Shown one piece after another: positions 58,658 through 63,222 of a stretch of 64,000 nucleotides of DNA. Source of the DNA: an uncultured Opitutia bacterium (GTDB lineage Bacteria > Verrucomicrobiota > Verrucomicrobiia > Opitutales > UBA953); contig CAIOAN010000013.1 of the NCBI GenBank assembly GCA_903855995.1, positions 1-64,000 of the forward strand. Direction: 5' to 3'. The translations under genes and the position numbers were made by a program. The first letter of the stretch is position 1, and every line of letters starts with the position of its first letter. The notes beneath the pieces were generated by a model. It worked only from the letters and a program-made list of their open reading frames with translations, was not told the origin of the DNA and did no database searches.

Positions 58658-58912
58658 TCATTCCGAGTTGAGATGTAGCTTCGAAGAATAACCGTGCTCG
58701 CCGAAAAAGCGGGTCGGCACATAGGCGACGACAATCCGGGGAGCGCGCCCGACGCGCACAATTTCATGGTCGTGCTCACGCGGCAACTCCTTGGGCTCCA
58801 TGGCTTCTTGTCTCACCGGCTGATCGCCGGTCCGGGCGGGCGCACACTCAATCAGGGCCAGCACCGTGATGCCCACTATCTGCAACACCGGCAACAGTGA
58901 TGAGTAGTTCAT
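58658..58912 (-). CDS. Small membrane-anchored protein, unknown
   Basis: The 84-residue protein has an N-terminal hydrophobic helix (LLPVLQIVGITVLALIEC) ending in a Cys that could be a lipoprotein or membrane anchor. A polar tail follows (RVGRAPRIVVAYVPTRFFG near the end). The frame extends 19 codons upstream, but the start MNYSSLLPV gives a proper anchor. It converges with the GHL10 gene. No homologue was recognised and no SD sequence is visible. Confidence 0.55.
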   Translation of the reverse strand: MNYSSLLPVLQIVGITVLALIECAPARTGDQPVRQEAMEPKELPREHDHEIVRVGRAPRIVVAYVPTRFFGEHGYSSKLHLNSE

Positions 58913-59366
58913 GCGGGGTAATGTATCGTTAAGACCATTCCCCGCACCCCTAAGTTCACGACTAGGCAAAACAGCCTATCATACGGACTCCTAATGCGCG
59001 GCCCACTCGTCATAAGATTAATATACTCAGCTAAGTTGGATGGTTGATTCGAGCGGTCCACGCCTCGGTTCAGGACCCGCACTCGCACCAGCACCCGATA
59101 ACCAAGACCTGAGATCCGACCGCCGAGACCTGAGACCCGAAGATGCCCTCCCGCCACCTGAGACCTGGGGCCGCCACCCGCCACCTGAAATTAACTGTGG
59201 TCTTGGGTAGGGTTGAGCGCCCTCGCTCAACCGCGGCTGACCAAGGGTGGTCAGCCCTACCTTAATTATATCCCCTGCCAACTGGCCAACAGCTCAACCG
59301 GTCAACTAATCGTGTCCCCGTGTCCCCATGCCCACGTGCCCCCCTCGCGGCTATGCCGCGCGGCAC
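58913..59366. other. Gene-free region with low-complexity repeats and a palindromic element
   Basis: About 450 bp without a credible gene. From ~58975 to 59045 the sequence is AT-rich and featureless. From ~59090 to 59190 short related phrases recur (AGACCTGAGA, GAGACCTGAGACC, CACCTGAGACCTG, GCCACCCGCCACCTG). The palindromic three-way element lies at 59206-59261. From ~59310 to 59345 a CGTGTCCC/GTGCCC run of simple sequence is seen. Confidence 0.6.
59206..59261. repeat. Palindromic element with perfect three-way-junction fold
   Basis: Two 9-bp hairpins, GGTTGAGCG/CGCTCAACC (59211-59219 with 59224-59232) and GGCTGACCA/TGGTCAGCC (59235-59243 with 59248-59256), have 4-nt loops CCCT and AGGG. 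They are enclosed by an outer 5-bp stem GGTAG/CTACC (59206-59210 with 59257-59261), leaving only a 2-nt gap. All 23 base pairs are perfect. It resembles REP/MITE-like intergenic elements. Confidence 0.75.
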
Positions 59367-59434: not shown

Positions 59435-59764
59435 TTAGGCCTTAACCTTCTTGTCCTTCTTCTTCTTTTCGTCGCCAGCAGGAGCGGCGGCACCAGCGTC
59501 AACGGACAGGGCCTTGGCCTTGTCATGGACGGAGGCTTCGACCTTCACGGCCTTGCCCACGAGGTCCTTGAGGCCGTCAGCACCCTTGGTTTCCGGGGTG
59601 ATGGCGATGGTGGTGTCCTTGCCGCCTTTGACGGAGACAACGATCTCCTTCTTTTCGGCGTTGAAGGACTTGAGGGTGCCTTCAGAGGTGGCGGTCTTGC
59701 CGCAACCAGCCTGAGCGGCGGCAGCGAGAGCGAGGACTGACAGGATGCTGAGGATGTTCTTCAT
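59435..59764 (-). CDS. Small secreted protein, unknown
   Basis: The 109-residue protein has a clear signal peptide (MKNILSILSVLALAAAAQA) followed by GCG. A short beta-rich core (TLKSFNAEKKEIVVSVKGGK, then LVGKAVKVEASVHD) is followed by an acidic-to-basic tail ending EKKKKDKKVKA. The core resembles small OB-like or DUF5666-like periplasmic domains, though I cannot name one. A TAAGAA lies 6 nt before the ATG without a clear -35. The strong terminator downstream supports a real, well-expressed gene. Confidence 0.75.
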   Translation of the reverse strand: MKNILSILSVLALAAAAQAGCGKTATSEGTLKSFNAEKKEIVVSVKGGKDTTIAITPETKGADGLKDLVGKAVKVEASVHDKAKALSVDAGAAAPAGDEKKKKDKKVKA

Positions 59765-61137: not shown

Positions 61138-63222
61138 CTACCTGTTAACGGTGACGCTGCTGACCGCGTTCTTGCTGGCATTGTAAGCCTTACCGGTGAA
61201 CTGCACATGGGTGACGGCGAACGTCACACTTCCAGTGGTCGTCGCGAGCATACGCTCCGAGACGACTTCCACTTGACCGTTGCGATCTGTCCGCACCTGG
61301 ACCTTCCCGTTGAGGATGCCAGAGGCGGTCAGCGAGACGGTCGCTCCGGACACGGGTTTACCGGCATTATCAGAGATGGTCACGGTGCAGGCGAAGTAAC
61401 CCATGGCGTTGCGATTCGTCGGGCGTGGACGGACCCCGCTATCGTCATCGTCGTTATCCGCGTCGCGGCGCACAGCCCTCCCATTGGTGATGTCAAACCA
61501 AGCGGCGGTCATACCAGAGACATCCACGTAAGCCGTCGTCGGCGGCGGGGGTGGAGGCGGCGGCGCCGCGGTGACGTTGATGACGGTGGTCGTGGTGTTG
61601 GTGAGATTGATTCCATCAATCACGGTGAGCGTGGCGGTGAAATTACCGACCGCGGTGTAGACGTGCACCGGATTGGCGAGGCTCGAAGTCACCGTGCCGT
61701 CACCGAAATTCCACAGATAACGCAGCGCCCCGGCGTTGGTCGTCGTGGAATGAGCCGAAGAGAAACTCACCGACAACGGGGCGGCACCGTTGGTCGGAGT
61801 CGTGCCCACGGTCGAAGCCACGGGAGGATATACGGGTGGAGGCGGCGGCGTGCTCGTCCCGACCCAGCTACCCGTCAGCGAGAAACGGCCGACCGACGCA
61901 TAGTTGCTGTAATTGGTCGCCCCGGTGCCATCGGCTGCTCCGCGGAGAACGATATAATAGATACCCGGGACGGTCAGAGTCGCGGAAAGCGATGCGTTCA
62001 TCCCATTGGTCCCCGTCGCGACGCCGGAGGCCACGGTCAGCCCGGCGGTGTTCACCAAACTAAGTGCAATCTTGAGATCCGGATCCCGGTTGGCCGCCAA
62101 CGCCGAGAGATTAAGTGCGCCGACCCCCGCCTGGATGGCATACCAAGCACTGTCATTGGCATTACGAATAATCCCGCCGGCGGTGACCGAGGTACCGGTG
62201 ACCGGGGTGGCATTGGTCGGGCCGGTGCCATGATCTGCCACGATGAGCGGCACACGCGAGGTAATGATGGCAAGTTGATCCTGCGGATTATTCGCGAGCG
62301 GGTATTCGCCCTTACTCCATTGGGTGACGGCTTTGTAATAACTCACGCCCATGATCGGCGCCCAATCACCCTGCCCTCCAAAATATTCCACCCCGGCGGC
62401 CGTTCCCGATGCGACCGTGCCGTCATGATAAAGACCCAAGGTGTGCCCGCATTCATGGGCCGCAGCTTCTGCGATCGCTTTGTTAGAATTGCCCAACTGC
62501 GCCGGGAAGACGAACGCCGGGATGTCATTCGAGGCCGCCGAAGCGGCGACGACTCCGCCGAAGGTGCCGACATACGCCACGCCGCCGGCCGCCGAACCAA
62601 GCCAGTCGAGACTCGAACCACCGATCACGCAACGTACGCCATACTGCGCATCGGTGCTGGAGGTCCGCCGAATGGCCTCTTCCCCCGGATCCTGCGTGGT
62701 GACGTCGATGTCCCACGGTGCGTAATCCTCCGAGACACGACGCCAGATATCCTGGATGACCGCGAGCTCGGTGTCAGAGAATGCCGTCGGGTTGCCATCC
62801 AAATCAAACGGCGGGGTGGTGATGGTCGCGCTCGTGCTGTTCCACGGCGTGCCGGTGGTGGCGTGTCCTTTGAAGTCGAGATAGATCACCTTCTGGGCAC
62901 CCGGACGCGAATGCAGGAAAAAAGTCTGCGCGAGCGGCTGAATCGCCGTGCCGGTGAACGGCGAATTATCCGTGCCGACGACATCCTTGTTTGGCAGCGC
63001 CTGGCAGATGACGAGCGCTCGATTCGCCGCATCCAGATGCACGTGCGGACTGTTCCGCGCAAAGCGTCGGAACGCGACAGGCTCAGCCCCAGCCTGAGAC
63101 GCCGCTTGGTTCAGTTCGTTGTCGCTGGCCTTATTGGCTGGGCGATGTTGCGGACCTTCGGCCGCGTGGAGAGAAAACGCCGCCAATAAACCGACGATCA
63201 GAGCACGGGGTAGCTTGAACAT
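61138..63222 (-). CDS. Secreted metzincin-type zinc metallopeptidase with PKD and Ig-like domains
   Basis: The 694-residue protein has a signal peptide (MFKLPRALIVGLLAAFSLHA). A metzincin catalytic domain has AAAHECGHTLGLYHDG (HExxHxxGxxHD, ~248-263) and a Met-turn-like APIMGVSYY. A ~130-residue beta-rich region follows. A Pro-rich linker (~452) leads to a PKD domain with RYLWNFGDGTVTSS (~500). A second Pro-rich linker (~555) leads to a C-terminal Ig-like domain (GKPVSGATVSLTASG). It is presumably exported to degrade proteins or glycoproteins. A promoter of leaderless geometry with GATAAT stands 6 nt from the ATG. Confidence 0.9.
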   Translation of the reverse strand: MFKLPRALIVGLLAAFSLHAAEGPQHRPANKASDNELNQAASQAGAEPVAFRRFARNSPHVHLDAANRALVICQALPNKDVVGTDNSPFTGTAIQPLAQTFFLHSRPGAQKVIYLDFKGHATTGTPWNSTSATITTPPFDLDGNPTAFSDTELAVIQDIWRRVSEDYAPWDIDVTTQDPGEEAIRRTSSTDAQYGVRCVIGGSSLDWLGSAAGGVAYVGTFGGVVAASAASNDIPAFVFPAQLGNSNKAIAEAAAHECGHTLGLYHDGTVASGTAAGVEYFGGQGDWAPIMGVSYYKAVTQWSKGEYPLANNPQDQLAIITSRVPLIVADHGTGPTNATPVTGTSVTAGGIIRNANDSAWYAIQAGVGALNLSALAANRDPDLKIALSLVNTAGLTVASGVATGTNGMNASLSATLTVPGIYYIVLRGAADGTGATNYSNYASVGRFSLTGSWVGTSTPPPPPVYPPVASTVGTTPTNGAAPLSVSFSSAHSTTTNAGALRYLWNFGDGTVTSSLANPVHVYTAVGNFTATLTVIDGINLTNTTTTVINVTAAPPPPPPPPTTAYVDVSGMTAAWFDITNGRAVRRDADNDDDDSGVRPRPTNRNAMGYFACTVTISDNAGKPVSGATVSLTASGILNGKVQVRTDRNGQVEVVSERMLATTTGSVTFAVTHVQFTGKAYNASKNAVSSVTVNR

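Follow-up and report, generated by a model that had tools for sequence, protein, structure and literature searches.

A REPIN of two head-to-head GTAG-REPs with a clover-leaf fold, and a matching transposase gene, in an uncultured Opitutia bacterium

Repetitive extragenic palindromic (REP) sequences, their inverted doublets (REPINs) and the REP-associated tyrosine transposases (RAYTs) linked to them have been studied mostly in Gammaproteobacteria. The element described here lies at positions 59206-59261 of the window, by which the whole analysed stretch of 64 kb is meant (positions 1 to 64,000 of contig CAIOAN010000013.1, assembly GCA_903855995.1, from an uncultured Opitutia bacterium). The nearest system in print is that of the GTAG-17 head-head dimers of Opitutus terrae (PMC3733652; this and the other cited articles are drawn upon in the parts available to us), which agree with it in class (Opitutae, Verrucomicrobia), in the GTAG tag, in head-head orientation and in a distance of 1-2 bp between partners, the likeness being one of description. 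Within the literature on REP/RAYT in Verrucomicrobia or Opitutus and on REPIN/RAYT heterodimers, as far as it was available (subscription journals were outside the scope), no work treating this lineage was recognised beyond PMC3733652. The element consists of two GTAG-REPs placed head to head, 2 nt apart and with their tags pointing outward; its precise name is REPIN, alias head-to-head GTAG-REP heterodimer. With high confidence we regard it as a miniature non-autonomous mobile element of two inverted GTAG-REPs with a matching RAYT encoded in the same genome, i.e., a known kind of element found in a little-studied bacterial group and distinguished by an unusually rigid clover-leaf design.

Direct reading of 59206-59261 gives GGTAG-GGTTGAGCG-CCCT-CGCTCAACC-GC-GGCTGACCA-AGGG-TGGTCAGCC-CTACC. 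All 23 of 23 Watson-Crick pairs are present, nine in each of two perfect hairpins and five in the outer complement, exactly as a first-pass annotation of the letters had described; the hairpins have loops of 4 nt and stand 2 nt apart. DNA folding returned precisely this three-way junction (z = -5.26; none of 200 dinucleotide shuffles was as stable). Read on its own strand, each half begins with GGTAG and continues without a gap into a 9-bp hairpin, whose stem opens with GG and whose loop is CCCT; the apparent 5-bp outer stem is thus nothing other than two outward GGTAG tags standing opposite each other. A scan of the window for GGTAG joined to a perfect 9-bp hairpin found these two arms only and found none in 50 Markov shuffles of the window, while with up to one mismatch 4 matches appeared, both arms included (shuffle mean 0.58, maximum 3). 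A chance hairpin was rejected on the folding z-score, the window shuffles and the absence of any doublet under the control pattern described below. The element occupies the gap between the open reading frames (ORFs) 58658-58969(-) and 59435-59764(-), in agreement with its earlier placement in gene-free DNA. The features of GTAG-REPs, a short palindrome directly after GTAG and many copies, are present, intergenic placement having been checked for the window copy; those of REPINs, inverted REPs with GTAG outside and the ability of the single strand to fold, are present as well. The annotated features are as follows.

59206..59261, + strand: REPIN, head-to-head GTAG-REP heterodimer with three-way-junction fold (sequence, folding, copies, covariation).
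59206..59232, + strand: REP arm 1 (LE type), with GGTAG tag, 9-bp stem GGTTGAGCG and loop CCCT; G at stem position 7 in 39/39 aligned distinct copies.
59233..59234, + strand: spacer GC between the REPs, 2 nt, as in most copies.
59235..59261, - strand: REP arm 2 (RE type), inverted, with GGTAG tag, 9-bp stem GGCTGACCA and loop CCCT; C at stem position 7 in 39/39 aligned distinct copies.
59206..59210, + strand: GGTAG tag belonging to arm 1, which supplies one side of the apparent outer stem and presumably serves the RAYT as guide or recognition motif (role of GTAG after the available part of PMC8266576).
59257..59261, - strand: GGTAG tag of arm 2, the other half of the apparent outer stem (alignment of copies).
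59199..59205, + strand: GGTCTTG, which agrees in part with the 5' flank motif TGYMTYR; candidate cleavage or target site (flank-motif counts).

The assignment to a REP/MITE-like repeat (MITE, miniature inverted-repeat transposable element), possibly multicopy, was borne out by the genome of origin (G000; 2.66 Mb in 13 contigs, 97.4% complete). Similarity search returned 42 matches at E up to 1, which rejects a single-copy curiosity; after removal of 4 reverse-strand duplicates they mark 38 places, several of which hold a half copy. A pattern fixing only the outer GGTAGGG/CCCTACC revealed 49 doublets of all REP types in this genome and none when the pattern was reversed as a control. The window element is present in 28 of the 36 other genomes of the genus (29/37 with its own) and absent from all 20 that represent other families, so that neither of the two circumstances named beforehand as refuting the idea, a single copy and lack of conservation in relatives, was encountered. 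No match was found in phage records, and a phage element was rejected. In the same genome (e.g., at loci L035, L036, L041 and L102) further GGTAG-REP types occur, often adjacent to or nested in one another, with different stems and one shared layout, namely GGTAG, a 9-bp stem mostly starting with GG and a loop of 3-4 nt; with up to one mismatch, GGTAG-REPs gave 118 matches in 193 kb of DNA, a biased sample.

Compensatory base changes, which the first-pass annotation had proposed to look for among genomic copies, were indeed present. The alignment comprises 40 doublets (39 distinct), hand-picked for distinctness and found by similarity alone or with a hairpin filter; 97.5% of its cells are paired, a percentage biased upward because of the hand-picking and the partial filtering. 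Two-sided changes occur in 10 of the 23 pairs, that is, in 5 of the 9 pairs of each hairpin, and the covariation score of 0.212 exceeds the shuffled value of 0.103, none of 500 shuffles being as high. In the tag columns (1-5/55-59) the 39 distinct copies show no two-sided change, and because of this the outer 5 bp lack covariation support as a selected stem. Thus, of the outer stem postulated initially, the pairing stands, and the stem itself is replaced by two conserved tags.

The second check proposed at the outset, a search for a REP-type transposase, likewise succeeded: such a gene was found in the same genome between REPs of the same type as those of the window. Four Y1_Tnp matches are present there, the best being P0001 (154 aa, G000:C10:43021-43482), and the order at this locus is doublet, REP, gene, REP, doublet, all of one REP type, the same as in the window element. 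P0001 matches the NCBIfam family of REP-associated tyrosine transposases (NF047646; E 6.8e-21, 74.7 bits), Pfam Y1_Tnp (PF01797; 28.1 bits, above the cut-off of 23) and the structure of E. coli TnpA-REP (4er8; E 2.4e-7), and it carries PDHIH and YLRANP, the HUH motif and the catalytic tyrosine of the Y1 transposase fold. Among 28 RAYTs read, PDHxH is found in 27 and PDHLR in one, Y..NP in 28/28. One or more GGTAG-REPs stand within 250 nt of 27 of the 28, that is, of all but L096, which comes from another family of the order. In all 6 RAYTs of at least 70% identity (P0001 included) the TGA stop lies inside the downstream REP, and the DNA flanking the unit on its upstream side is common to the six. 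The type of REP tracks the RAYT tree, the minimum of 12 changes being reached, as compared with a mean of 20.0 over shuffles, 0/200 of which were as low, an agreement that is partly descriptive, as the 27 labelled RAYTs were typed by REP stem by eye after their flanks had been seen. Other RAYTs of this genome having the length of P0001 adjoin other stems, GGATGCGAT on C7 and GGATGACCG/GGGCGTGCG on C13. The linkage of a RAYT to matching REPs, expected for REPINs, is therefore seen at the P0001 locus, at the other RAYT loci and in the tree. At E 1e-5, NF047646 detects a RAYT in 24 of the 36 other genomes of the genus, all 24 with at least 10 doublets, while in the 12 RAYT-negative genomes doublets are absent from 4 and number 7-42 in the other 8 (Fisher one-sided, calculated by hand, 495/58905 = 0.0084). 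Most likely, it is a RAYT encoded elsewhere in the genome that spreads the window element.

Two further groups of RAYT-like genes were noted. A longer open frame of 323 aa at G000:C13:102364-102774, with a divergent doublet 4 kb away (C13:98442), scores 52.6 bits for a Y1_Tnp/RAYT-like domain and probably belongs to a different RAYT group. Five genomes from other families of the order (G056, G044, G049, G043 and G038) hold many RAYT-like genes of ~330 aa, with 34 matches in G056, and from 0 to at most 2 GGTAGGG doublets.

Signs of movement come from comparison of loci. At the RAYT locus the intact downstream doublet is found in 2 of the 6 species (G000 and G008) and is absent in the other four, one of which (G025) has a half copy, and the upstream doublet is absent in one of the six (G004), where the neighbouring DNA is conserved. 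The gap matching that of the window contains a related but different doublet in G030, a GGATGACCG/GGGCGTGCG-type doublet in G007, other REPs in G024 and G070, and none in G027 and G004. In the genome of origin, 91 nt interrupt the doublet at C8:481306-481454 exactly between the spacer bases G and C, with neither loss nor doubling of a base. The inserted piece is a further REP pair, whose right end bears TCGATGCA, the sequence complementary to the flank motif TGCATCGA. Such duplication-free insertion is predicted by single-strand chemistry of the IS200/IS605 type (PMC2817692, available part). A second split copy, C10:52903-53041, contains a GGACGGCTC/GGCGGGCTC pair, its ends being ambiguous given CCGC on both sides.

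Several observations weigh against the interpretation of the element as a REPIN mobilised by its RAYT. The score of P0001, 74.7 bits, is below the curated NF047646 cut-off of 80; the cut-off is passed by same-clade orthologues (84.1 bits for G029:C73, and for G004:C33 79.4 bits, rising to 81.8 with in-frame neighbours). Doublets persist in 8 of the 12 RAYT-negative relatives, and a close RAYT (at least 70% identity) is found in 6 of the 37 genomes of the genus, its own included, as compared with 29/37 for the element. This sparseness could equally reflect gaps in draft assemblies, loss of the RAYT or mobilisation by another RAYT; all genomes of the genus are drafts, in which a gene situated between repeats is easily lost. 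Among the matching gaps of relatives there is no base-exact empty site for the window's own locus; the flanks of the window copy were tried as such a site and rejected, the gap being too rebuilt. The evidence for mobility is comparative throughout and movement was not observed, so the element is probably, rather than demonstrably, mobile.

The fold itself deserves separate consideration. For the window copy DNA energies give -22.4 kcal/mol for the clover and -14.3 kcal/mol for an in-register long hairpin, while a computed version with identical arms would form a long hairpin of 26 bp with -34.6 to -35.5 kcal/mol, which would beat the clover. Among the genome's own doublets with a spacer of up to 4 nt (27/49; the 22 long-spacer doublets do not enter the count, 6 of them having given invalid clover energies), the clover is more stable than the long hairpin in 25 of 27. 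Stem position 7 of the aligned distinct copies carries G-C in arm 1 (39/39) and C-G in arm 2 (39/39), and it pairs across arms in none of 39; these opposite base pairs block the 26-bp palindrome and leave the three-way junction as the most stable fold. A long single hairpin as the structure of the family was accordingly rejected, both by the 0/39 cross-arm pairing at position 7 and by the lower overall pairing (82.1% vs 97.5%). For comparison, 50 doublets of relatives were selected by hand from the rows listed, which represent part of the genomes, excluding rows with N, repeats, arms not resembling REPs, and genomes G041 and G043; in this sample an opposite G/C at position 7 is found in 21/29 short-spacer and in 2/21 long-spacer doublets.

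One might suppose that the three-way junction is a chance by-product of any two inverted REPs, no selection acting on the clover fold. The identity of the outer stem as two tags devoid of covariation agrees with this, as does the behaviour of longer-spacer doublets, in which position 7 is frequently identical in both arms and which in several cases would form one long hairpin. Identical arms, however, would give a hairpin of about -35 kcal/mol, yet likeness of more than 7 of the 9 stem positions is seen in 0/27 of the own short-spacer doublets and in 1/29 of those of relatives (where one doublet has identical 5' arms), and position 7 never pairs across arms (39/39), so we consider a by-product rather unlikely. 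More credible, if still short of probable, is an explanation whereby the arms differ only because long perfect palindromes are avoided, being destroyed or stalling replication (SbcCD-type), with no need of the RAYT for a clover. The REPs flanking the P0001 gene, which stand far apart, are of the C7 type on both sides; this suits palindrome avoidance, and an anti-palindrome rule therefore fits better than a left/right label. In its available part, PMC3733652 reports a preference for heterodimers without obvious explanation and itself suggests protection from SbcCD-type clearance, whereas for the SBW25 REPINs a clover rather than a hairpin was proposed as the form recognised by the RAYT (PMC3116915, legend of figure S11). 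Avoidance alone does not explain why the same position 7 recurs in several short-spacer families, though these may have one common ancestor, and the position-7 rule is then not a record of many independent events. From sequence alone, palindrome avoidance and a selected clover are inseparable.

Upstream of the tag a further conserved feature emerges. In 56 non-redundant A-type doublets the 7 positions nearest to GGTAG are informative (among others T at -7, G at -6 and T at -3), with almost no information upstream of position -9. TGYMTY followed by 0-2 purines stands directly before GGTAG in 83/298 non-redundant REPs, compared with 0-2 occurrences at each of 13 shifted positions; by type, it accompanies 45/132 A-type and 38/166 other stems and 0/302 GGTAG lacking a hairpin. 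The motif was derived from A-type copies and then counted on the same and on other types, so only the latter count (38/166) is half independent. The window copy has the partial motif GGTCTTG. Group 3 TnpA-REP proteins cut at CT, one member also at CA, the site being chosen by GTAG (PMC8266576, available part); many forms of the flank motif contain CT or CA, TGTATCG does not. Judged by these letters, TGYMTYR is likely the cleavage site.

Combining both lines, we tentatively propose, as a possibility that we do not yet favour, that short-spacer REPINs of this lineage are obligate clovers owing to the opposite pairs at position 7, a RAYT-competent junction being their ground state, and that TGYMTYR-GGTAG, common to REPs of different RAYTs and situated inside the mobile unit, is a cleavage site set by the GTAG guide. 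Recognition would then be modular, the stem following the protein and the cut site following the guide. As part of the favoured reading of the element as a REPIN, in turn, we infer the following course. During replication the element would become single-stranded and adopt the clover of two REP hairpins; the RAYT, a single-strand transposase of the HUH/Tyr kind whose gene lies elsewhere in the genome, would bind the hairpins with the GTAG tags as guides, cut beside the flank motif and re-insert the piece into single-stranded DNA, creating no target duplication. The arms would be kept different, chiefly at position 7 (G-C vs C-G), which would prevent their annealing into one long palindrome.

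Host function at the site was considered in its turn. The element could now be used by the host as a terminator, a stabiliser of mRNA 3' ends or a protein-binding site, its spread being old and finished; REPs of other bacteria have such roles (available parts of PMC3733652 and PMC8266576), and the element is intergenic, ~170 bp past the 3' end of gene 59435-59764(-). That gene, however, is already ended before the element by a T-tailed hairpin (59395-59372, - strand), and direct reading of 59206-59261 and its flank shows no T run after the element; a terminator for the neighbour was rejected on the ground of the hairpin already in place. In other species the corresponding gap has a different REP pair or no REPs at all, and the best Rfam match is below threshold (17.9 bits vs a gathering value of 88), by which a known Rfam RNA was rejected. 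Host use thus appears improbable, and with a terminator-like hairpin already present at the neighbour, a sub-threshold Rfam match and a site that is not conserved, there is no sign of a host role at 59206-59261.

The surroundings of the element are themselves rich in repeats. The segment 59271-59361 beside it is similar to dozens of contigs in the genus (e.g., G000:C7:103866) and rich in GTGTCCCC/CACGTGCCCC; it looks like another dispersed repeat. Before the element, short and degenerate repeats such as ACCTGAGACC / CCGCCACC occur at 59090-59190, and G004, G024 and G030 have similar letters in their matching gaps. Farther on, ORF 61138-63222(-) (694 aa) shows by eye HECGHTLGLYHD, which we take to be a zinc-protease-like motif, and presumably PKD-like repeats.

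About a dozen RAYT/REP pairings, with the same GGTAG tag and hairpin layout and different stems, coexist in this genus of uncultured Opitutae, which makes the genus a natural experiment on substrate choice by RAYTs; the position-7 rule together with the fold energies offers a testable reason for the heterodimer preference that PMC3733652, in its available part, calls unexplained. Unlike the account of O. terrae GTAG-17 given there, the genus contains many families at once, each with its own RAYT type. Likeness to the IS200/IS605 elements (as far as described in the parts available) lies in a HUH/Tyr transposase placed between subterminal hairpins and in the absence of target duplication, which fits the split doublet C8:481306-481454; in contrast to them, inverted REPs stand on either side of the RAYT unit, and the doublets are gene-free. 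The BIMEs (bacterial interspersed mosaic elements) and TnpA-REP REPtron of E. coli (PMC8266576, available part; PDB 4er8) have in common with the present system the GTAG tag, inverted REP pairs and a HUH/Tyr TnpA-REP beside REPs, but E. coli REPs are longer and have an essential bulge, while the short perfect stems found here are nearer to the group 3 REPs of Stenotrophomonas. With the REPINs of Pseudomonas fluorescens SBW25, as presented in the available part of PMC3116915, the element shares two inverted REPs acting as a unit, a linked RAYT and compensatory changes; GI REPINs of that strain have long spacers (71 bp between the first residues of the 16-mers) and pair lengthwise as one hairpin, whereas the window element has a 2-nt spacer, mismatched arms and the clover as its ground state.
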